34,668 bases of DNA, taken from Candidatus Vecturithrix granuli (GTDB lineage: Bacteria > Moduliflexota > Moduliflexia > Moduliflexales > Moduliflexaceae). Positions 33 through 22,734 of the stretch are shown in pieces. The stretch spans positions 261,467 through 296,134 of the forward strand of contig DF820471.1 in assembly GCA_000739535.1 (NCBI GenBank). Reading direction: 5' to 3'. Numbering within the stretch: position 1 is the first letter of the stretch; every line of letters begins with the position of its first letter. The notes under the pieces were generated by a model. The model was not told where the DNA came from. It worked only from the letters and a program-made list of their open reading frames with translations, and ran no database searches. The translations under genes and the position numbers were made by a program.

Positions 33-148
33 TGATAACTCGCTGGCTCTCTACCCTACCCAGGAAGGGCGGGCGAAAAAATTGATTGCCGAAACTTTAG
101 CTTGGGTAGCGCCCGCCCTTCCTGGCGCGTTATGCGCGGTCGTTATAA
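33..148 (+). other. attC recombination site 1 (integron cassette boundary)
   Basis: The right arm (AGCGCCCGCCCTTCCTGG) and left arm (CCAGGAAGGGCGGGCG) are inverted copies around an A-rich loop with the AAAAAATTG core shared by the other sites. The R' box is GTTATAA at 142-148 and the probable R'' box is TGATAAC at 33-39. The outer part of the left arm pairs poorly with the right outer arm (GCGTTATGCGCG), so this site is a mosaic or decayed copy. Bases 3-35 read as the last ten codons and TGA stop of a possible gene in the preceding cassette, most of which lies outside the window. Confidence 0.75.
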
Positions 149-188
149 TTCCTCAAAAGTGTAGGCATAGTAAATTCGATAAAAAATT

Positions 189-3100
189 ATGAAATTACCT
201 GGAACGTTACGAAACAAGATTATTGATTTCCTACAATCACTTCCCAATATTGGTGACATAAGGGGTCGCCAAGCATTTATCTATTCTGTAGGATTAGACT
301 CAAAATTACAAGATCAAATTGTTTTTGATGAACCGCCAGCACAATTTATCCCCCTCCTTGTAAAAAGACTTCTCGACTATGGTCAAATCAGTGATAAGCG
401 AAATGCACTTGAAGCAGTTTTGAAAGTTGCGAAGAACTATGTAGGACTTGATAGAAAAGCTTATTGCGATGAACTGTTAGCAGAATTATCTGATAAAGTT
501 TGTGAATTTGAAGCTGCAAATGATGCACTAATCTGTAATACTAGTTTTTTTAAACAACTTTTAGTAAATATTCCATTGTCTGCACTCAGAGACATTGTTA
601 GCTTCAAAATGGTTTTGACATTTATAGATAATAAGGAGAGAATAGAGCAATTAGAAAACAATTTCTTTATAGTATTTTCAAAGGTTCTCAATAAATACAT
701 AGGCCAATATAATGTATTAGCAACATTAGAACTGAGAGATCTTAAACGGGAAGATATACAAACAATTATAAAAACGAAAAGCTATACATTTTATGAATCG
801 CTCAAGAAGTTTAGATGTGAAGATATTTCATCAGACCTTTTTAGCGAAGAGGAAATACAACGAGTTTTTATAGAGACATTTGTTAATGTTTTTAAGGATG
901 ATTTAAAAAAGGAACAATATGAACTTATAGAAGCAATTTATAGAGACACTGTTATCTATTATCGAGAGACTTTTTTTGAAGAATTTTCAAAAAATAAGCA
1001 AATTTGGAATACTTTCAAAACGGATTTTAAAATAGATACAGTTTTAGAATTTCTTCATAGTCTCTATCATAATATTTCTATAAGAAATCATTTTGAAAAT
1101 CTCCGATTTTACAGTATTAGACAAGAGATTATTCCTCAGAAAATTAATGAGCTTGAATTCAACTATCTTCATTACATAGAGAGAAAGTTTGCATCTATCG
1201 AGCTGAAAGGGGTCTCTCCACGTGTACATGGGCAAGATATATCGTTTGATTTAGATGAAATATTTATCCCTCTTAAAATTGGAAATAATGAGAAAACCAA
1301 ACATTTTTTATTGAGTTATGAGGATAAAAATAAATATACTCAACTATTTCAGAAAGAGGAACCCTTACAAACCGAAAAATCTGAGTTGTTAGCTTATTTA
1401 GAAAGACTCCCGTGTATTGTATTGCTTGGCGATCCAGGAGGAGGTAAATCTACATTACTTAAATATATTGCCCGTCAAGTATCTAAGTTGAGACATACCA
1501 ATAAATTTTTGCCATTTTATGTCCCAATTTTTTTAAGAATTTCAGAATATGCTCAAGCGATTAAATCAGATTCTTCCAAACGATTACTTGATTTTTTATA
1601 TCATGATTACGATAAACAATATTCGGAATTATTTAAATGGGCTTTTGAAAATTACCGTGCGTTGTTATTACTTGATGGCCTTGATGAAGTTCTTGATACA
1701 TTTCAACGTATGAAGATTGTAGAAGAAGTTGAAGATATTGTAGCGCGTATGCCAGAAAACCGCTATATTATTACTTCTAGGGTTGTCGGTTATAATGAAG
1801 CTCGATTTGGAAAAAGTTTTATTCATTTTACTATTGAAAAATTTGATCGTGCGAGAATAAAAGCATTTTGCGAAAGTTGGTATAAAGCAGTTGCTAAGAA
1901 TAGTTTTCAAACTATAACAACCGCCATAAATGAAGCTAATAAACTTTATGAGGCAATTATTGAAAAGCCTGAGATTGAAAGTTTAGCCTGTAACCCTTTA
2001 TTGATTACGTTAATTGCGAATATTCACTTTAAAGGGCAGACGTTACCTTATAATCGAGTTCAACTCTACGACATTGCTACAGAGACATTACTTCAATATT
2101 GGGTACAGCATAGGGTCAATGATGATAGCCAACTAAAAGATAAAGATGATGTTCTCGAAATCTTATCGCCAGTTGCCTTTTATATTCATCAGAATAGCCC
2201 TGATGGAACTATTGAAGAACAGGATTTTCATAACCGATGCAAGCAAGTACTAAATAGCGAAGCATATAATCTTGAAGAAAATGAGATAAAAAAAGAGATT
2301 AAAGAGTTCACAAGATTTCTGAGACAACAAAGCGGGTTTTTCCATGAAAAAGGTATTGATGATGAAACAGGAAGGATCTTTTTTGGTTTTTTCCATCAAA
2401 CATTTCAAGAATATTTAGCAGCCATTGAAATTGTGAATCAGTGGAAAGAGGAAAGTTTAGACTTGTCTGAAATTGTATTTAATCCCCGTTGGAGTGAATC
2501 TCTCCAACTATCCGCAGGAATTTTAAAATGTGAAAAGGGAAGATCTGGTAAACAAAGTGTTACACGATTTGTTAAGGATATTTTAAAACTTGAAAATATC
2601 GATCATCGCAATACATCCTATCATCAACCCCTTTTCTTGGTAGCTTCCATATTAGCTGATAATATTGACTTAATCCCCCAAACTCAGGAAGAGTATTTTG
2701 ATTTTTTCTTTGAGAAATGGACATTAACTTCTGACAACAAAATACTCGATGAATTTGATAAACATTTTTCTCGTTTACTCCGTTCAAAAAATAAAGAAAC
2801 TATTTGGAAAAGGATGGAATCTATCTTAAAAGAGCCAAAACATCCTTTACAAACAAGGTTTCCTAAAATCATTGCATCAACACAATATTTAATAAAAGAA
2901 GCGAAAAATTATTATATACAGTTTCTTAACTATAATGATATTACAGTTATTAAAGTTTTTTGGGAGTATCTTCAAGAATTGGCCGTCGGTGCATCGCAAA
3001 CAATGTATTATGAAGCACAAAATTATGGGGATCCTTCTTATATCCCTTATGATCCTTCTGTAGGTCTTATGATGATAAATTATTCTGAGCTTCTTAAGGC

Positions 3101-3449
3101 CATTGAAGATTTACCTATAGACTTTTTCTTGAATTTGATAAATACTGTAGGAAATATTTGGAAAGAGTACGAATATATTTACAATGCGTTTTGGACTGGT
3201 TATTGGTATTGTTCTGTTGATATTGAAAATATGATTCCGGGTTTAACGACACTAAAATCTGCAAGGCTTCGTATTCTTATGCTGTATTTAATCTCTCAAG
3301 AAAATAAATTATTAGAGTACAAAGATAGAATATGGAAGGCTCTTCAGGAGGTTGAATCGAAAGATGAATTATTTGACGATTTTGAAAAAAGACTACGAGC
3401 AAAAGTCATTGATGTAGAAAAAAGTAAAAGCGATACTTGTTCAACATAA
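189..3449 (+). CDS. NACHT-domain NTPase, NLR-like, probable anti-phage defence protein
   Basis: The protein is 1086 residues long. An N-terminal helical region (about 1-110) resembles small death-like or effector-associated adaptor domains. A long helical linker follows, then a STAND/NACHT NTPase core. The Walker A motif GDPGGGKST is at 414-422 and the Walker B motif LLLLDGLDE ends at about 500. A sensor-like RYIITSR lies downstream, as does the FFHQTFQEYLAA motif typical of the region after NACHT. The last 300 residues match no repeat I recognise and may sense a trigger. There is no signal peptide or membrane segment, so it is probably cytoplasmic. It is the only gene of its cassette and is clearly more AT-rich than the genes after 10 kb, which suggests separate ancestry. 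Bacterial NACHT proteins are known to act as anti-phage sensors that kill or arrest the infected cell. A defence role here is inferred from family and context. The NTPase call is firm; the effector type is unknown. Confidence 0.85.
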   Translation: MKLPGTLRNKIIDFLQSLPNIGDIRGRQAFIYSVGLDSKLQDQIVFDEPPAQFIPLLVKRLLDYGQISDKRNALEAVLKVAKNYVGLDRKAYCDELLAELSDKVCEFEAANDALICNTSFFKQLLVNIPLSALRDIVSFKMVLTFIDNKERIEQLENNFFIVFSKVLNKYIGQYNVLATLELRDLKREDIQTIIKTKSYTFYESLKKFRCEDISSDLFSEEEIQRVFIETFVNVFKDDLKKEQYELIEAIYRDTVIYYRETFFEEFSKNKQIWNTFKTDFKIDTVLEFLHSLYHNISIRNHFENLRFYSIRQEIIPQKINELEFNYLHYIERKFASIELKGVSPRVHGQDISFDLDEIFIPLKIGNNEKTKHFLLSYEDKNKYTQLFQKEEPLQTEKSELLAYLERLPCIVLLGDPGGGKSTLLKYIARQVSKLRHTNKFLPFYVPIFLRISEYAQAIKSDSSKRLLDFLYHDYDKQYSELFKWAFENYRALLLLDGLDEVLDTFQRMKIVEEVEDIVARMPENRYIITSRVVGYNEARFGKSFIHFTIEKFDRARIKAFCESWYKAVAKNSFQTITTAINEANKLYEAIIEKPEIESLACNPLLITLIANIHFKGQTLPYNRVQLYDIATETLLQYWVQHRVNDDSQLKDKDDVLEILSPVAFYIHQNSPDGTIEEQDFHNRCKQVLNSEAYNLEENEIKKEIKEFTRFLRQQSGFFHEKGIDDETGRIFFGFFHQTFQEYLAAIEIVNQWKEESLDLSEIVFNPRWSESLQLSAGILKCEKGRSGKQSVTRFVKDILKLENIDHRNTSYHQPLFLVASILADNIDLIPQTQEEYFDFFFEKWTLTSDNKILDEFDKHFSRLLRSKNKETIWKRMESILKEPKHPLQTRFPKIIASTQYLIKEAKNYYIQFLNYNDITVIKVFWEYLQELAVGASQTMYYEAQNYGDPSYIPYDPSVGLMMINYSELLKAIEDLPIDFFLNLINTVGNIWKEYEYIYNAFWTGYWYCSVDIENMIPGLTTLKSARLRILMLYLISQENKLLEYKDRIWKALQEVESKDELFDDFEKRLRAKVIDVEKSKSDTCST

Positions 3450-3466
3450 TATCTTGAAAATAGGAA

Positions 3467-3580
3467 TTATAACGATCTGCTTGCAGGGGACGCCAATGGG
3501 CGGCGGGGAAAATTGGTTGCTATTTCCTGCAAGTGTAGTGGCCGCCGCCCTTTGCCGCCCCTGAAGCAGGGGCGTTAGAA
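3467..3580 (+). other. attC recombination site 2
   Basis: R'' TTATAAC is at 3467-3473 and R' GTTAGAA at 3574-3580. The left arm TGCTTGCAGGGG pairs with CCCCTGAAGCA on the right, with one extra G in the left arm, as in the extrahelical bases of known attC sites. The inner GGGCGGCGGGG arm pairs with CCGCCGCCC. R'' plus flank (AGGAATTATAACG) is the exact reverse complement of the first bases of this cassette at 141-153 (CGTTATAATTCCT). That marks the NACHT gene as one circularisable cassette of about 3.4 kb. Confidence 0.85.
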
Positions 3581-3720
3581 GTTGTTGATCCTACCCACCC
3601 CAGAAAACGGTAAGTTTTTTCACATAAAACTTGAATAAATCCTCGACAAAATTTATAATGTCACCATGACGTTAACAGCAGAACTTCTGAACGTAAACCA
3701 GCAAACATAAACGTATCCTT

Positions 3721-5124
3721 ATGGTATCTCAAGACGAATATCTTTCGACGATTGCAGACTTAGACCGAGAATTATATCAGTACTATAAGTCTGTCATCGT
3801 GACAGATAACGCGCTCACCAGACAAGTCGTCAGTTTCCAGGCGAACAAAGAGAAATCACGCTATCGCTGGTATAAGTATAAGGAGGCTTTTTCTGCCGAT
3901 CTGATCGCATATCTTTTGAGAAAATATCACGTTCCTCACGGAAAGTTGCTTGATCCCTTTGCGGGAATTGGGACAACGCTTTTTGCAGGAAGCCGACTTG
4001 GCTATGACGCAGATGGAATCGAGTTGCTGCCAATCGGACAACATGTCATTCTCGCCCATCACTATCTCTTACATCATATCACGAAGGAAGAAGTGGATAT
4101 CCTCAAAAAATGGAGAGATGAGAAACCTTGGGAACATTGTGAACAGCAAAAGAGATTTAATATCTTACGTATTACGAAAGGCGCATATCCTCAGGACACA
4201 GAACAAAAAATTGGACACTATCTCGCTGCTGCCGAACATGAACCAGGAGAGATTAATTTTCTCCTCATCTTTGCGTTATTATGCGTGTTAGAGTCGGTAA
4301 GCTATACCAGAAAAGATGGACAATACTTGCGTTGGGATGTTCGTTCTGGTAGAAATGCCGGGAAAAAACCCTTCAATAAAGGGAAAATATACTCATTTGG
4401 CGAGGCCATCACGTCAAAACTCCATGAAATCATGACCGACATTGATCATAACAGCGATCATTATAACCTGTTCCAAGAAATCCCTTCATATGGCGATATT
4501 CAGTTATTCAAAGGGTCGTGCTTGACGATCCTTCCGACCATCGCGCCAATGACATATACCGCCGTGATGACCTCACCTCCCTATTGTAATCGGTATGACT
4601 ATACCCGAACCTATGCCTTAGAACATGCCTTACTTGGAGTCACAGAACAAGGTCTTGTCCAACTTCGGCAAACGATGTTAAGCTGCACGGTCGAGAATCG
4701 TCCGAAAAATCTGCTTGGCATGAATCCCCAGTGGGAAGAGGCGATCAAAGCCACAGAACGCCAAACGTTACTTCAGACCATTCTTGCGTATCTTGAGGAG
4801 CAACGAGAACAAAAGGCCCTGAATAATGCCGGAATTTCGAGGATGGTGAAAGGGTATTTTTATGAGATGGCCTGTACCATCGCGGAATGTGCTCGAGTCC
4901 TGAAAAACGATGGCCTCCTGTTTATGGTCAACGATAATGTACGGTATGCCGGAGCAAGTATTTCGGTTGACCTGATTTTATCGAATATTGCCGAATCGTT
5001 AGGATTGGTTGTCGAACAGATTCTTGTCCTACCGCAGGGCAAAGGCAATAGCAGCCAACAAATGGGAGGCTATGGAAGAGAACCTCTCAGAAAATGTGTC
5101 TATATATGGAGGAAACGCCTGTGA
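3721..5124 (+). CDS. type II DNA methyltransferase (probable N4-cytosine, partner of AvaI/BsoBI-like nuclease)
   Basis: The protein has 467 residues. The AdoMet-binding motif DPFAGIGTT is at 78-86 and the catalytic motif TSPPY at 284-288. TSPPY, with Ser rather than Asp before PPY, is typical of amino-methyltransferases that make N4-methylcytosine. The binding motif comes before the catalytic one, and a long region between them could carry target recognition. A second conserved block ([19 protein letters not shown]) lies near residue 400. The stop codon overlaps the GTG start of the nuclease gene by four bases, indicating translational coupling. The role is to protect host DNA from the companion nuclease; for AvaI/BsoBI relatives the site is CYCGRG, but specificity here is inferred. 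No strong ribosome binding site is visible before the ATG at 3721. Confidence 0.9.
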
Positions 5125-6095
5125 GTGAACAGCCAGCATATACCAGCCATATCAGTTCAAGCGACAGTTTAGTGACGCCCTACGCAGCGATTCGAGCCGG
5201 ATTTGTCGCATTGGCGTTAGAAAAGAATAGAAAAGCGACGCCGTTTGTCGCTGAAGCACGAGCGTTACAAGTGTCTGCGTCACAAGCCAATACGCCTCAA
5301 GAGTTGTTGGAGATGGAATCGATCAAAGCCTCATTATTAACGGCGGCGGGAGTCTCTGATAAAGCAGCCAATCATCTGACGGAAGCCGATCAGAAAGAGA
5401 CGATTCAGGGATTGATCGATAACTTTTTAGAGCCGGCAGGCAAGGAATTTGTCGAAGAACTTGTCTACCGCTTTTTGTTGACCAGGGGCGATACCTTAGG
5501 AGGGAGTATGCGGAATCTGGCTGGTGCGTTAGGTGAAAGAAAACTGACCAGAGCGATTATCTCGACATTATCCATTGCCGGGAGACCGTATTCCTGGTTA
5601 CATTCCAAAACAATGCAATGGCTGCCCATGTCTGATGATGATACCGATATTGAATTCAATCTCCGTGGGCTACAATGGAGTTATCAACACCAGCCGAGAA
5701 CGTTCGTGTATAATCTGACCGTTCCTCTGGTGAAAAAGAATGTTGATCTCTGTCTTTTCCATTGTGAACCTGAAGATATGGTGTTTGGAAAGCAGAAAGA
5801 TTCCATCCACTACAAGCCAGAGAAATATCTTGCATTAGGAGAACTGAAAGGAGGAATAGATCCTGCCGGAGCCGACGAACACTGGAAAACAGCGAATTCG
5901 GCGTTACAACGTATTCGAACTGGATTTGCCAAAAAGTCATTGACGCCATATACGTTCTTTATCGGAGCCGCAATTGAAAAAAGTATGGCAAAAGAAATCT
6001 TTCATCAATTAGAAAATCGGACATTGACGAATGCCGCGAATCTGACCAATGAAGAGCAATTGATCTCAATTTGTAAATGGCTCATCCAGCTATAG
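5121..6095 (+). CDS. type II restriction endonuclease, AvaI/BsoBI family
   Basis: I chose the GTG start at 5121 because it follows GGAGGA at 5109-5114 and overlaps the methyltransferase stop as GTGA. This gives 324 residues, almost exactly the length of BsoBI. Conserved family segments are present, including [13 protein letters not shown] and a [14 protein letters not shown] block. The active site appears intact: Asp at about 209 (KKNVDLCLF), then Glu241-x-Lys243 in GELKGG, close to the catalytic Asp, Glu and Lys of BsoBI. The predicted role is double-strand cleavage of unmethylated DNA at a CYCGRG-like site. It is the second gene of a two-gene cassette and ends 10 bases before the next attC site. 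The gene looks complete. Confidence 0.9.
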
Positions 6096-6105
6096 GAGAC
6101 GCAAC

Positions 6106-6217
6106 TTCTAACGATGCGCATGAACGGCGACCAGGAAGGGCGGGCGAAAAAATTGGTTGCCACATGTCAAGTTCAGTTGCGCCCGCCCTTCCTGTCGCCT
6201 GAAGCGGGGCGTTCGGC
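6106..6217 (+). other. attC recombination site 3 (mosaic arms)
   Basis: R'' TTCTAAC is at 6106-6112 and R' GTTCGGC at 6211-6217. R'' with its flank (CAACTTCTAACG) is the reverse complement of the cassette's first bases (CGTTAGAAGTTG, 3573-3584). The inner arms CAGGAAGGGCGGGCG and CGCCCGCCCTTCCTG are perfect. The outer left arm is of the GCGCATGAACGG type while the outer right arm is of the CCTGAAGCGGGG type seen in sites 2 and 6, so the site joins two subfamilies. Confidence 0.85.
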
Positions 6218-6288
6218 GCTATCGTTGAAACATGCTGAGATAGTGTCTCATAGAACATAACAACCATACTATGACAAGGAGGTCAATT

Positions 6289-7029
6289 ATGAAAACAATG
6301 CTCTGTACCATGATGATAAGTATGTCTCTCTGTTGGGGGGCGGTTTCCTTTGCGCAGGATGCTACGACGTTGACGTATATGACGGAAGAATATCCCCCCT
6401 ATCAGTACACAGAAGCGGGAACTCTGAAAGGTCTGACCGTGGATTTGTTGAAACTCATGTGGGCGAAAATGGGGATGCCGGAACAAGCTATCGCCGTCTA
6501 TCCCTGGGCGCGAGGCTATAATCTAATCCAGAATAATCCGAATTCTGTCCTATTTTCGATGATTCGAACGCCAGAACGTGAACAGAAGTTTAAATGGGTT
6601 GGCCCGATATTTACGGCGAGAACGGTACTGATCGGTTTAACGCAGCAGCCGGTCACAATCCGCTCTTTAGAAGACGGCAAGCAGTATCAAATCGGTACGA
6701 TCCGCGAGGACGCTGCTGAACAATTATTGAAAGCCGCCGGTTTTGATCAGCAGCAGTTACAAGCCGTGACCAGCTTAGAACAGAACATCAAAAAACTCCA
6801 GGCCCATCGTATTCAATTAATCGCCCATTCCGAAAAAGCCTTCAACGATTTTATTCAACACGCCGGGCTTGATCCCACAGCGTTTGCTGTGGTGTTTGTG
6901 CTTCAATCCGTCGAAGGCTATTATGCCTTTCATAAAGAGTGTTCTGATGTCCTGGTTGCCCGCTTTCAAGACACCCTGAACAGCCTTGAACAGGAGCGTC
7001 AGGAATTACTGGAACAGTATGGACAATAG
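6289..7029 (+). CDS. periplasmic solute-binding protein, family 3 type
   Basis: The ATG at 6289 follows AAGGAGG closely and opens a clear Sec signal peptide (MKTMLCTMMISMSLCWGAVS, cleaved after SFA). The protein has 246 residues. The mature N-terminus (LTYMTEEYPPYQYTEAG) and the later LKGLTVDLLKLMW are typical of the first lobe of family 3 amino-acid/polar ligand receptors. No permease or ATPase genes are beside it, so it may serve as a ligand receptor for signalling rather than uptake; this is inference. It is the only gene of its cassette. A distant paralogue of the same fold lies at 12937-13722. Confidence 0.85.
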   Translation: MKTMLCTMMISMSLCWGAVSFAQDATTLTYMTEEYPPYQYTEAGTLKGLTVDLLKLMWAKMGMPEQAIAVYPWARGYNLIQNNPNSVLFSMIRTPEREQKFKWVGPIFTARTVLIGLTQQPVTIRSLEDGKQYQIGTIREDAAEQLLKAAGFDQQQLQAVTSLEQNIKKLQAHRIQLIAHSEKAFNDFIQHAGLDPTAFAVVFVLQSVEGYYAFHKECSDVLVARFQDTLNSLEQERQELLEQYGQ

Positions 7030-7085
7030 ACTGGACTAACCCCATCCCTGGATTCCCTGTCAATAGGGGCTATCATGGGTGCCGC

Positions 7086-7104
7086 GGGGGCGATCATTGC
7101 CCCC
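7086..7104. repeat. GC-rich hairpin after binding-protein gene
   Basis: GGGGGC and GCCCCC flank a 7-base loop. No T-run follows on the plus strand, so a classical terminator is not supported. It lies in the 143-base stretch between the binding-protein stop and the truncated attC site. I see no gene in 7030-7398. Confidence 0.45.
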
Positions 7105-7172
7105 AGTGCGAGGGAAAAAAAAGAGGAAGAGACGGGGAGGAACCTGGGTGGCGAAAAAATCACATGAACGAC

Positions 7173-7250
7173 GCCGAACAAGGCGCATGAACCGGACGTC
7201 AAAAAGGCGGCGGGGAAAATTGGGCTTTGACGGCCAAAGCGAGCGTTGAC
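7173..7250 (+). other. attC recombination site 4, right half lost
   Basis: The left half is clear: R'' GCCGAAC at 7173-7179, GCGCATGAACCGG, then GGCGGCGGGGAAAATTGGG like the core of sites 2 and 6. Its CGCCGAAC matches the reverse complement of this cassette's start (GTTCGGCG at 6211). The expected right arm and a GTTRRRY R' box are missing; only GCGTTGAC remains near 7242-7249. The next cassette's start does not match its own R'' box either, so a deletion or rearrangement has removed the boundary between the binding-protein cassette and the next gene. Confidence 0.6.
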
Positions 7251-7398
7251 ACTCCTGACTTTTAAAACAGTTTCTTAGTCGGATTGATGTGAGGAGGGCC
7301 GCGCAGTCGTTGCCCCCGCGTAACGCCTGCTTTGCGCGCCTGATGAGTCAACATCAAGGCTCGGATCGAGAGCATGTAACACCACAAAGGAGGGATTT

Positions 7399-7764
7399 AT
7401 GGAAAATCTGCATGATCGGGTACGATGGATGGATTACAAAGGAACAAAAATTCTTGTGGTTGATTTTTCAGGGTTGAAGACGGGGGTGGAGGTCAAACAC
7501 GTGACGGACCTCTCTGAAAAAATTCATTCGGCACAACCCCTGAGATCGGTCAGAAGACTCACGATTGCCCGGAATACCTTTTTTATTGAGGACGCGCGAA
7601 AAGTGATTGCTGAATATACCCCCAAAATCCTCAAGTATACGATCGCATCGGCCTCGATCGGCTTTACCAACAGGAAAGCAATCATTATGAAAACCATTAA
7701 TCCAAACATGAAAGATTTTGAGACGGAAGAGGACGCCGCGGAATGGCTCTCACAACAGGAGTAA
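7399..7764 (+). CDS. SpoIIAA/STAS-like small cytoplasmic protein
   Basis: The protein has 121 residues, and AAAGGAGGG lies just before the ATG. The N-terminus (YKGTKILVVDFSGLKTG) and the C-terminus ending in EDAAEWLSQQ resemble the small SpoIIAA-like/STAS-fold proteins found alone in many environmental bacteria. In these an early strand is followed by a helix and a late 'EEAxEWL' helix. There is no signal peptide, membrane segment or catalytic motif. Members of this fold usually bind partners in signalling, but the partner here is unknown. It sits alone in a cassette whose left boundary is damaged. Confidence 0.6.
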   Translation: MENLHDRVRWMDYKGTKILVVDFSGLKTGVEVKHVTDLSEKIHSAQPLRSVRRLTIARNTFFIEDARKVIAEYTPKILKYTIASASIGFTNRKAIIMKTINPNMKDFETEEDAAEWLSQQE

Positions 7765-7871
7765 CGGTCGTGATTGCATGGAGACGTTGAGCTGTATCCA
7801 TTGGGTTGCGAATGAGGCCTATTGAGGAGGGACGATATCGGAGCACACCGCGCGAATCATTGGCGAAGATG

Positions 7872-7982
7872 CCCTAACGATGCGCATGAACGGCGACCAG
7901 GACGAGCGGGCGGGAAAATGGGTTCTGAAACTTAAGTGCAGTAGCGCCCGCTCGTCCTGGCCCGTTATGCGCGGCGTTAGGC
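7872..7982 (+). other. attC recombination site 5
   Basis: R'' CCCTAAC is at 7872-7878 and R' GTTAGGC at 7976-7982. The left arm GCGCATGAACGG pairs with CCCGTTATGCGC on the right, with one extra G in the left arm. The inner arms CCAGGACGAGCGGGCG and CGCCCGCTCGTCCTGG are perfect. This is the cleanest copy of the GCGCAT subfamily. Confidence 0.88.
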
Positions 7983-8891
7983 ACTATAACTATCACCATA
8001 GGCAAGAGCATTTTCAAGTAACAACATTTGTCCTACTTCTATTTCTTGATGGTGTATTTGCTGGACTTCAAAGTTAGTGACTAATACTTCTTTATTCAGG
8101 ATTCGTGAAGTATCATCTTTTTTCACGCGCATCCCTGAATAACTCTGAACAGGGATAATATGAAAATTATGATATAAGCTATGTATTTCTGGTATATCAT
8201 ATGAAGATAAAATCCATTGACACTTTGCATTGGAGAGATATTCGGCTAATTGCCGATGCTCATCCCAATTTCGCATATTATAGAGGTAATTACAGCCATT
8301 ATTAGGATAAGGAGGATCGATATACATGACCGTTTTAGAACGGTCATAACGTTCAAAACAGGCTTTCCAATCAAGATTTTCAATAATTACTTTGTGTAAT
8401 CGTTCATATACTGGCTCAATTCGCTCTTTGAGGTATTTTAATGCGCCAATAAGTCGATTTCCGTGTCCTCCATCAGTGATACTCGTTTGAAAACGGGGAT
8501 AATGTAATTCGCCTCCCCACCCAGCCATAATAATATAATAGAATCGGTGAGCACGCTCTATCTCAGTTAAGGTTGAAATATCAATGTTCGCAAGTCGTTC
8601 AAATTCGTCTCTAGAAACGAGATCCCATTCGAATGATCGAATGAATTCTTCGGGCTGATATTTTACAACCCGAAAAAAGTTGACAAGTTCTGTATCTATA
8701 TCATTAAGAATTTCAACTTTACTAGGAGGTTTGGCAAACAAGACCCAAGCTGCTCCTGCAAAGAGTTCAACATAACATGTATGTTCAGGGATGAGTGCGA
8801 CAATTTGGTTTCGTAAGCGAGACTTGCCGCCTACCCATTTGAAGGGACTATTGATGACTTGATATTCATCGACTTTATTTATTTTATTCAT
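7977..8891 (-). CDS. D12-class (Dam-like) adenine-N6 DNA methyltransferase
   Basis: The ATG at 8891 is preceded by GAGAGG, giving 304 residues. Motifs appear in family order: PFKWVGGKSRL near the N-terminus (AdoMet pocket), YVELFAGAAWVLF (motif I) and MYIDPPYPNN (motif IV, catalytic DPPY). These define the D12 adenine methyltransferase class. It faces the HTH gene across a short shared promoter region and belongs with the HTH and nuclease genes in one restriction-modification cassette. It is transcribed against the cassette direction. Its TAA stop is formed by the first three bases of the cassette, inside the R' box of attC site 5. The recognition sequence is unknown. Confidence 0.92.
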   Translation of the reverse strand: MNKINKVDEYQVINSPFKWVGGKSRLRNQIVALIPEHTCYVELFAGAAWVLFAKPPSKVEILNDIDTELVNFFRVVKYQPEEFIRSFEWDLVSRDEFERLANIDISTLTEIERAHRFYYIIMAGWGGELHYPRFQTSITDGGHGNRLIGALKYLKERIEPVYERLHKVIIENLDWKACFERYDRSKTVMYIDPPYPNNGCNYLYNMRNWDEHRQLAEYLSNAKCQWILSSYDIPEIHSLYHNFHIIPVQSYSGMRVKKDDTSRILNKEVLVTNFEVQQIHHQEIEVGQMLLLENALAYGDSYSA

Positions 8892-8922
8892 AAATGGGCC
8901 TCTCAAAATTATAAAAACATTA

Positions 8923-8939
8923 TGTCTCTATTGGAGACA
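8923..8939. promoter_or_regulatory. inverted-repeat operator between methyltransferase and controller gene
   Basis: TGTCTC-TATTG-GAGACA is a perfect 6-5-6 inverted repeat in the divergent promoter region. On the minus strand a TTGACA box (plus coordinates 8962-8967) lies upstream, so the repeat would fall near the methyltransferase transcription start. This position fits a C-box where the HTH protein encoded at 8996 could set methyltransferase and nuclease expression. Binding is inferred. Confidence 0.55.
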
Positions 8940-8995
8940 AAATTCCATATATGCTGATCTTTGTCAAGTTTTTATTTTTATGAAAAATTCATCCT

Positions 8996-9220
8996 ATGCA
9001 AAAGTTTGGCGAAAAGTTGCGAAAATTGCGGAATAAGCATGGAATGACTCTGAAAGAATTAGCTGTTAAACTCGGTCTGAACGCCCATGGCTATATCAGT
9101 GAAATTGAATCTGGGAAGAAAAAACCTACTGTAGAATTTGTGGTGAATGTTGCCCGTCTGTTTCATGTCAGTACTGACCAATTACTGAAGGATGAATTGG
9201 ATGTGGAAGGAGACAGTTGA
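8996..9220 (+). CDS. XRE-family HTH controller (C-protein-like) of restriction-modification system
   Basis: The 74-residue protein is nearly all one helix-turn-helix domain (LRKLRNKHGMTLKELAVKLG, then GYISEIESGKKKP), the layout of C proteins that time restriction-modification expression. It diverges from the methyltransferase gene and is one base upstream of the nuclease reading frame, the usual C-R order. C proteins bind an inverted repeat at the shared promoter, activating the nuclease late and repressing the methyltransferase. A candidate operator is at 8923-8939. The ATG at 8996 has no strong ribosome binding site, which is common for leaderless C genes. Confidence 0.8.
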   Translation: MQKFGEKLRKLRNKHGMTLKELAVKLGLNAHGYISEIESGKKKPTVEFVVNVARLFHVSTDQLLKDELDVEGDS

Positions 9221-9221
9221 G

Positions 9222-10010
9222 ATGCGTTCTCATTTTACAGGAATGATTCCAACAAAAAGCCAGATCGAAAAGTTGCGTCTTGTGTTGAGCACGTACCAAG
9301 ATGGAACGGGGCAACTCATCTTTGAATCTGAGCAAAGTTTACCTGGGTGGTGAGATTTTGAACGTTCAGTCGCTTTTGTTTTTGGTGGTGTTGCTCAAGA
9401 GAGCAAGGCTATTTTTGACGTTCTTGTCCCAATTCTACCTGAATCAGAAAGGTTCTATGGAATTTCTTGTAAAATGCGTGAAACGCTCCAAATCGTTAAC
9501 AAAACCGGACGTGTTACCGTCGAGGTTTCCAATTCTTCTGGAAAGTTTTGGGATGCCCTCAAAGCACATGGAATTGATGATTATCATTCTGATCCTGGTA
9601 CTGCCGGGAAAATCTTGCTTGATCTGATCGAAAGTTGGCACAATGAGGTGAGTTTGGAACGAGGAGGAATTGTTGACATCAAGAAAAGCTTTTACCTCTT
9701 ACTCCAATGGGATAAACGGTCTGGTACATATCAATTCTTCCAGTTTTCAACGCAACTTCCAAACCCAAAGAGTCTATCTTGGGTGGTCAACGGCAGACGG
9801 TTAACTGGGAGTGATAAAGTTGGTGTAGCAATAGAATGGTATGGACATTCAGGAGGGCAGTTAAAATATTATCCATTTGCAAAGCAAGCGATTTGGTCAT
9901 CGCATATTTTTCAACTCGAACCGTTACCAGCAAGTGATTTCGGGTATGGGCTGAAGCGACGAGTGTTTGAATATTTTCCAGAGTTATGGCAAGCAGCAGA
10001 CAAGTTGTAA
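9222..10010 (+). pseudogene. restriction endonuclease-like gene with in-frame TGA at codon 44
   Basis: The frame opens at ATG 9222 with AAGGAG upstream, one base after the HTH stop. It runs to a TGA at 9351-9353, then stays open in the same frame to 10010. The protein reads ...QSLPGW-stop-DFERSVAFVFGG..., and codon context suggests CGA (Arg) changed to TGA by one C-to-T transition. The downstream part has IFDVLVP and YGISCKMR, a possible PD-(D/E)xK-like acidic residue and lysine, then IEVSNSSGKFW-like and EWYGHSGGQLKYY segments. By position it is the nuclease of the Dam-like cassette, though I do not recognise a named family. Reinitiation at ATG 9474 could give a 178-residue fragment lacking the putative active-site Asp. 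The gene is probably inactive unless the stop is read through. Confidence 0.7.
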
Positions 10011-10031
10011 AAATCAAAAATGGAGAAAAGT

Positions 10032-10141
10032 GCCTAACACTCGCTTGCAGGGGACGCTACGGGGCGGCGGGGAAAATTGGGTGCTGAACTTCAAGCGCAG
10101 TGGCCGCCGCCTCGTGCCGCCCCTGGAGCGGGGCGTTAGCG
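10032..10141 (+). other. attC recombination site 6 (last in the array)
   Basis: R'' GCCTAAC is at 10032-10038 and R' GTTAGCG at 10135-10141. R'' with flank (AGTGCCTAAC) is the reverse complement of the cassette's start (GTTAGGCACT, 7976-7985). The outer arms GCTTGCAGGGG and CCCCTGGAGC carry the extra base on the left side. I see no convincing attC site to the right, so this appears to be the distal end of the array. Bases 10142-10223 hold no gene I can support. Confidence 0.85.
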
Positions 10142-10223: not shown

Positions 10224-10394
10224 GTACCCTAAAATTTAAAGATTTTGGTAACCAGGAATTTAAGTTATTGTATTATTGAGGCTTATCATATACTGCATGG
10301 TTACATTTGGTAACCATGTGAAAAGAGCTATGTTATAGAAAAACAAAGCTTTATGCTATCCTGGTCACCAAAATCTTTAAATTTTAGGTTGTAC
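10224..10394. mobile_element. MITE-like palindromic element, 171 bp
   Basis: The ends (10224-10257 and 10359-10394) are inverted repeats of about 33 bases with one mismatch and a two-base gap, both containing CTAAAATTTAAAGATTTTGG or its complement. The interior holds a second palindrome, CATGGTTAC...GTAACCATG, at about 10297-10319. There is no coding capacity. Long terminal inverted repeats on a short AT-rich core suggest a miniature inverted-repeat transposable element; a large extruding hairpin of other origin is the alternative. The right end overlaps the stop codon of the minus-strand fragment at 10377. Confidence 0.5.
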
Positions 10395-22647: not shown

Positions 22648-22734
22648 CCGCACGATACTGCCAAACCATTCGCGAGGGTGGGACGGAAAGCTACGGGTCT
22701 TCTGCAACACAGAAGATCGCCGGGTTGCCAAAGC
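22648..22734 (+). promoter_or_regulatory. cyclic di-GMP-I (GEMM-I) riboswitch aptamer
   Basis: The stem CCGC/GCGG closes the domain. Inside, GCCAAACCATTCGCGAGGGTGG forms the first hairpin with a GCGA tetraloop, followed by GGACGGAAAGCTACGGGTC, a variable stem (TTCTGCAACACAGAAG) and CGCCGGGTTGCC. These blocks match the GEMM-I consensus (GCAAACC, GNRA loop, GACGCAAAGC, CCGGGTTACC). Aligned to the Vibrio Vc2 aptamer, the guanine that contacts one base of c-di-GMP (G20) and the matching C are kept; an A at G20 would have pointed to cGAMP. It controls the operon starting at 22936. Confidence 0.92.

Follow-up and report, generated by a model that had tools for sequence, protein, structure and literature searches.

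Do the repeats at the left end of this locus delimit the cassettes of a genuine integron, a gene-capturing and gene-shuffling system, and is its cargo directed mainly against phages, as was originally predicted? The window, by which we mean the whole stretch of 34,668 nucleotides that was analysed, corresponds to C13:261467-296134 in the 8,384,694-base, 21-contig genome of Ca. Vecturithrix granuli, an uncultured filamentous bacterium of the Modulibacteria (KSB3). This genome is a metagenome bin with a listed contamination of 10.75%. Table 1 of Sekiguchi et al. (2015; PMC4312070) gives 21 scaffolds, 8,384,694 bp and an N50 of 597,372 for UASB270, there named 'Vecturathrix granuli'; contig C14 of the genome used here is 597,372 bases long. 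The same paper describes an anaerobic wastewater reactor as the origin of the UASB270 population and mate-pair data as having been used in the scaffolding. The word 'integron' is absent from PMC4312070, and a full-text search of open-licence papers found 'integron integrase' and 'Modulibacteria' together in 0 papers. We conclude with high confidence that the array at 33-10141 belongs to a sedentary chromosomal integron of this bacterium and that it mainly stores phage-defence modules.

Five intact attC sites (110-116 bp) and one truncated site lie at the predicted positions, and the predicted span of 33-10141 runs exactly from the R'' box of the first to the R' box of the last.

33-148, plus strand: attC site 1; covariance model 76.4 bits, bottom-strand fold z -4.0
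3467-3580, plus strand: attC site 2; covariance model 104 bits, fold z -6.9
6106-6217, plus strand: attC site 3; covariance model 107.6 bits
7173-7252 (right end approximate), plus strand: truncated attC; aligned repeat family D1
7872-7982, plus strand: attC site 5; 110.2 bits, fold -39.7 kcal/mol, z -8.6
10032-10141, plus strand: attC site 6, the last of the array; covariance model 101.6 bits

The R''/R' boxes, paired arms and shared A-rich loop (AAAATTG-like) are all present as described; the right and left arms pair, and the stem contains unpaired bases. Each of the five intact sites folds better as a single strand than its dinucleotide shuffles (bottom-strand z -2.75 to -8.6). Their alignment has a mean column identity of 76%, and RNAalifold yields 43 consensus pairs, 17 of which show compensatory change. 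Site 1 is the first attC past an N gap in the scaffold and closes a cassette that is otherwise unseen. The truncated site (R'' at 7173) retains the R'' box, left arm and loop, its right arm and R' are gone, and it has no stable fold (z +0.57 against dinucleotide shuffles). A search with an attC covariance model, suggested as a check on the prediction, was made with a model built here (R1), which matches all of the predicted intervals; R1 was derived from the attC sites of the window, and their scores of 76-110 bits hold by construction. An Rfam scan of the window gave no match to an attC family. R1 gave 0 matches in seven genomes from phyla with related IntI and is therefore lineage-specific and uninformative on attC in those genomes, while genomes of the same family and the same order gave short, weak matches only.

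Just past the array, at 10228-10388, lies a 161-bp element bounded by terminal inverted repeats of 30 nt that are 97% complementary, and flanked at either end by TTGTAC; a MITE family was ruled out by its single copy in the genome. At 22651-22733 the window contains a c-di-GMP-I-GGC riboswitch that exceeds the gathering score of Rfam.

The borders of the cassettes can be read from the sites themselves. IntI would act on the bottom strand of attC, in its folded form, to excise and insert cassettes, and the G^TT core would be the point of exchange, so that the first bases of each cassette should pair with the R'' of its own attC. In the cassette circle R'' and R' originate from one cassette; within an array, the expected partner of each R'' is therefore the R' of the preceding site and not that of its own site. 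The first bases of cassette 1, GTTATAATTCCT, are reverse-complementary to AGGAATTATAAC, which precedes attC site 2, over 12 nt, and the starts of cassette 2 (GTTAGAAGTTG) and cassette 5 (GTTAGGCACT) match their own R'' sequences over 11 nt (CAACTTCTAAC) and 10 nt (AGTGCCTAAC), respectively. The start of the interval that follows site 3, GTTCGGCG, is the reverse complement of CGCCGAAC in the truncated site (8 nt); the next intact attC gives no such match. Across the genome the mean match run is 7.67 nt for 43 neighbouring pairs compared with 4.29 nt for shuffled partners; 0 of 5000 shuffles reached 7.67 nt (the highest shuffled mean was 5.2), and within a single site R'' and R' match over a mean of just 4.29 nt. 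The test locates cassette borders to the single base. It also shows that the attC core is looser here at the fourth base (A in 38, C in 16 and G in two of 56 sites) than the textbook consensus, GTTRRRY.

The intervals delimited in this way carry the following genes.

142-3573, plus strand: cassette 1, with one gene (189-3449) for a 1086-residue EAD8-NACHT NTPase
3574-6210, plus strand: cassette 2, a BsoBI/AvaI-type restriction-modification system (methyltransferase 3721-5124, restriction enzyme 5094-6095)
6211-7975, plus strand: fused cassette 3/4, with a solute-binding protein of family 3 (6271-7029) and a 121-residue protein (7399-7764)
7976-10134, plus strand: cassette 5, with the three genes below
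7977-8906, minus strand: D12/Dam-type methyltransferase (Pfam MethyltransfD12, 5.3e-28)
8996-9220, in cassette 5: HTH control-protein-like gene (Pfam HTH_3, 1e-13)
9222-10010, in cassette 5: type II restriction enzyme with an in-frame TGA (PADLOC REase_II, 1.4e-20, in the part after the stop)

The NTPase of cassette 1 matches EAD8 (1.2e-28) and NACHT (1.1e-12) in Pfam and scores far below the EruA cut-off; from this domain architecture alone, it is a putative anti-phage NACHT protein (bNACHT). Two restriction-modification modules had been predicted. The type II system of cassette 2 is intact in both genes, which have open frames and whole-length family matches (restriction enzyme, Pfam BsoBI 6.9e-156 and PDB entry 1dc1 2.9e-120; methyltransferase, PADLOC 1.1e-153), but the restriction enzyme of cassette 5 is broken by a TGA at codon 44, ahead of the likely active site, and that pair is thus not intact in both members. 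Truncation of the attC at 7173 has left the genes for the binding protein (Pfam SBP_bac_3, 2e-11) and for the 121-residue protein in one fused cassette; the label 'STAS-like' given to the latter finds no match in Pfam, PADLOC or NCBIfam. A mainly anti-phage cargo describes this array well (three of the four intervals between intact sites), but holds less well for the genome as a whole, where defence accounts for roughly one in six to one in three cassettes by our own tally. We infer that this cargo functions in defence.

According to the original prediction, repeats occurring throughout the genome without relation to genes would have counted against an integron. Repeats do occur elsewhere: after both-strand matches were merged there are at least about 74 attC sites, some 70 of them beyond those of the window, with 150 of 1062 candidates scored. 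However, 55 of the approximately 74 detected sites lie in ten clusters, each of a single orientation, for which the probability is 3e-14 if orientations are random. The largest clusters are on C14 (12 sites), C15 (11), C21 (10), C18 (six) and C13 (five), the others being smaller, and 88 of the 93 inter-site open reading frames of at least 80 residues run along the array direction. The median inter-attC interval is 1.6 kb. Certain long intervals may contain missed attC sites; others pass the cassette test, examples being C15:450020-456620 (6.6 kb, four genes) and C15:426970-430571 (3.6 kb, DarT and a macrodomain protein). Cassette starts that are identical over at least 25 nt are shared by C3:89206 and C14:365936 and by C15:456731 and C18:476707, and the ends of contigs C3 and C15 lie within 60 bases of such starts. 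The repeated cassettes therefore probably broke the assembly, and array links between contigs are uncertain.

Defence genes in the other arrays include the DarT/macrodomain pair (DarTG), an EcoRV-type enzyme with a D12 methyltransferase alongside at C14:378852, and a short Argonaute at C14:369190-371963 (L070:4190-6963) with an HNH protein bearing an APAZ-like region ahead of it. Contig C18 adds a type II restriction enzyme together with a D12 methyltransferase, and C21 a BrxL-like gene and a DNA methyltransferase. Enrichment was judged on four Pfam families only. DNA methyltransferase matches are over-represented, with seven of 31 inside arrays that make up 1.35% of the genome (P = 1.6e-7); there is no such over-representation for solute-binding proteins (one of 19) or NACHT (one of ten).

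Other array intervals hold further gene sets. Ten same-direction genes lie between two attC sites at C15:441807-448713 (L073:1807-8713); they include two QueC-like genes, thymidylate-synthase-like, dCTP-deaminase-like, Ham1-like, GreA-like and kinase-like genes and methyltransferases, a set that looks like a nucleotide-modification pathway. A group II intron maturase with an HNH domain sits inside an attC array interval at C20:990460-991473 (L077:10460-11473), and similar DNA occurs in L079, near the attC sites of C8.

An integron also needs an integrase, and a search leftward of the window, proposed with the prediction, found two IntI genes in tandem on the same scaffold. A third gene with an intact frame is on C3.

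C13:256343-257281, minus strand: distal IntI, above the TIGR02249 cut-off
C13:257564-258505 (frame 257552-258532; L009:14553-15533), minus strand: proximal IntI, above the TIGR02249 cut-off
C3:83863-84807: C3 IntI, TIGR02249 451 bits

The tandem genes score 439 and 398 bits (cut-off 265) and lie 3-5 kb left of the window on the strand opposite to the array, as expected. A run of N of about 2.3 kb (C13, about 259,188-261,466) parts them from the window, so that their association with the array depends on the scaffold. The distal IntI has a complete R-K-H-R-H-Y catalytic set; full sets are present at two loci, and broken IntI copies occur on C14 and C18. The three intact-frame IntIs cluster in the tree (94/95) and adjoin the IntI of a same-order genome, and hence look native. 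A scan of genome contigs with the proximal IntI gave matches mainly in Holophagaceae.

The cassette-start rule locates attI without any model. Applied to the first cassette, it yields a sole good match in the stretch from intI to the first attC on each of two contigs. The match on C3 (L010:10164, GTTAGCCAT) is 9 nt long and some 345 bp distant from intI (chance expectation 0.013), and that on C18 (L074:18359, GTTAGAACATC) is 11 nt long and some 190 bp distant (chance expectation 0.0005). For the window array the rule finds no attI as far as the N gap, within which the site may lie; the first cassette would be expected to start with GTTATCATT. The position L009:15674, at which the homology of the two tandem IntI copies ends, was rejected as an attI as it has no GTT core. 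Several short palindromes (CGAACATGTTCG, CGAACAGGTTCG) directly ahead of the C3 attI, at L010:10000-10160, are possible operator sites. Beside the tandem IntI, a small gene (L009:15696-16058), possibly an integron-head gene, encodes a 120-residue protein that is 65% identical to the product of a gene (L069:7811-8164) immediately ahead of the C14 array's first attC.

Two other readings of the array were considered. The repeats could be MITE- or REP-like palindromic elements, dispersed and similar to attC in appearance only, and the roughly 20 of 74 sites that are isolated singles would suit this; neither the same-orientation clusters nor the presence of IntI and attI does, and a palindromic element would not match its R'' to the R' of a neighbouring site. 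The cassette-start test refutes this reading for the clustered sites, and overall it is extremely improbable. The second reading is a CALIN, in which the array would lack a functional integrase of its own, the adjacency of IntI would be a product of scaffolding and any shuffling would fall to the C3 IntI in trans. Its appeal lies in the N gap between IntI and the array, the lack of an attI on the IntI side of that gap and the several other arrays of this genome without a nearby IntI. Yet the orientation and distance fit a complete integron, the scaffold was built on mate-pair data (PMC4312070) and the distal IntI retains every catalytic residue, which makes a CALIN rather unlikely. In the sedentary integron that we favour, the tandem IntI presumably serves the window array across the gap, and the integron would be active at the present day.

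The proximal IntI differs from its neighbour in the active site. Its catalytic positions read Q-E-R-R-H-Y, whereas 17 of the 17 other aligned IntIs have R-K-H-R-H-Y; three of the six residues (Arg, Lys and the first His of HxxR) are therefore lost. Nevertheless, 326 codons are open, and its overall identity to other IntIs is roughly equal to that of the active copies. The remnant on C14 (at 198 kb) represents the same tandem fused by deletion, with a first part 87% identical to the proximal IntI and a last part 94% identical to the active (distal) copy. It has the same R-to-Q change, so that the loss of Arg most simply predates the split between the two; the remnant is without the K and H positions, and the shared inactivation is read solely from this change. 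Comparison of the proximal IntI with the remnant over 198 codons gives dS 0.60, dN 0.087 and dN/dS 0.15 (Fisher P = 2e-17). A functionless gene would be expected to approach a dN/dS of 1 over such a time. The proximal gene thus seems, from its codons, to be a pseudo-integrase retained by selection, although part of the signal could predate the inactivation if R-to-Q arose twice.

In the structure of V. cholerae IntI with VCR, the attC synapse holds four IntI subunits, of which two cut. Since only half of the protomers cut, our preferred role for the proximal IntI, proposed tentatively, is to partner the active copy without cleaving or to regulate it; repression of the active copy is an equally simple alternative to partnership. 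It is possible, if doubtful, that this is a two-integrase system in which the dead upstream paralogue either fills the non-cleaving places of the synapse or represses the active IntI. The dead IntI would then limit second-strand cutting and so control cassette traffic in the defence library. The gene might instead have no role and be merely decaying, its frame open by luck, in keeping with the two further broken IntI loci of this genome and with the frequent inactivation of IntI reported in Xanthomonas (PMC12444791). Against this stand a dN/dS of 0.15 between two copies that both bear R-to-Q, the 326 open codons and an identity to other IntIs at about the active-copy level, and we regard it as unlikely. 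A dead IntI that does work as a partner would provide a natural way into the question of how a four-subunit synapse achieves a single strand exchange. The tandem pair with a dead, selected copy is what is new here.

Integrons as defence libraries were published in 2025 for Vibrio (Darracq et al., Science eads0768; Getz et al., Nat Microbiol; as cited in PMC12444791 and PMC13064858). The suggestion that this locus broadens the defence-island view of integrons stands for the taxon, but not for the idea itself, already in print in 2025 (PMC12444791). The sedentary integron described here is genuine and is a defence library. We found no earlier report from its phylum; the principle is already known. 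A large, many-armed and defence-rich integron is now placed in the candidate phylum Modulibacteria, and supports integron defence libraries not being a speciality of Vibrio.

By the accounts cited above, the sedentary chromosomal integrons of Vibrio share with this one an IntI, attC cassettes, a large total array and phage-defence cassettes. Vecturithrix differs in belonging to another phylum, in the scatter of its arrays over several contigs, in its multi-gene cassettes with a median interval of 1.6 kb and in a GTTC core (16 of 56 sites) beside GTTA. The integrons described for Xanthomonas (PMC12444791) are likewise of ancestral chromosomal origin, with frequent IntI inactivation and IntI-less arrays. 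There 1.8% of the cassette orthologues were called defence compared with our sixth to third, a rough comparison as the methods differ, and inactivation is by frameshift, stop or deletion, whereas in the proximal IntI of Vecturithrix the frame is intact and residues of the active site are lost. Among known integrases, the proximal IntI matches V. cholerae IntI4 (PDB entry 2a3v) over its whole length (E = 2.8e-87) and retains the IntI-specific region, but has Gln, Glu and Arg in place of the catalytic Arg, Lys and first HxxR His.
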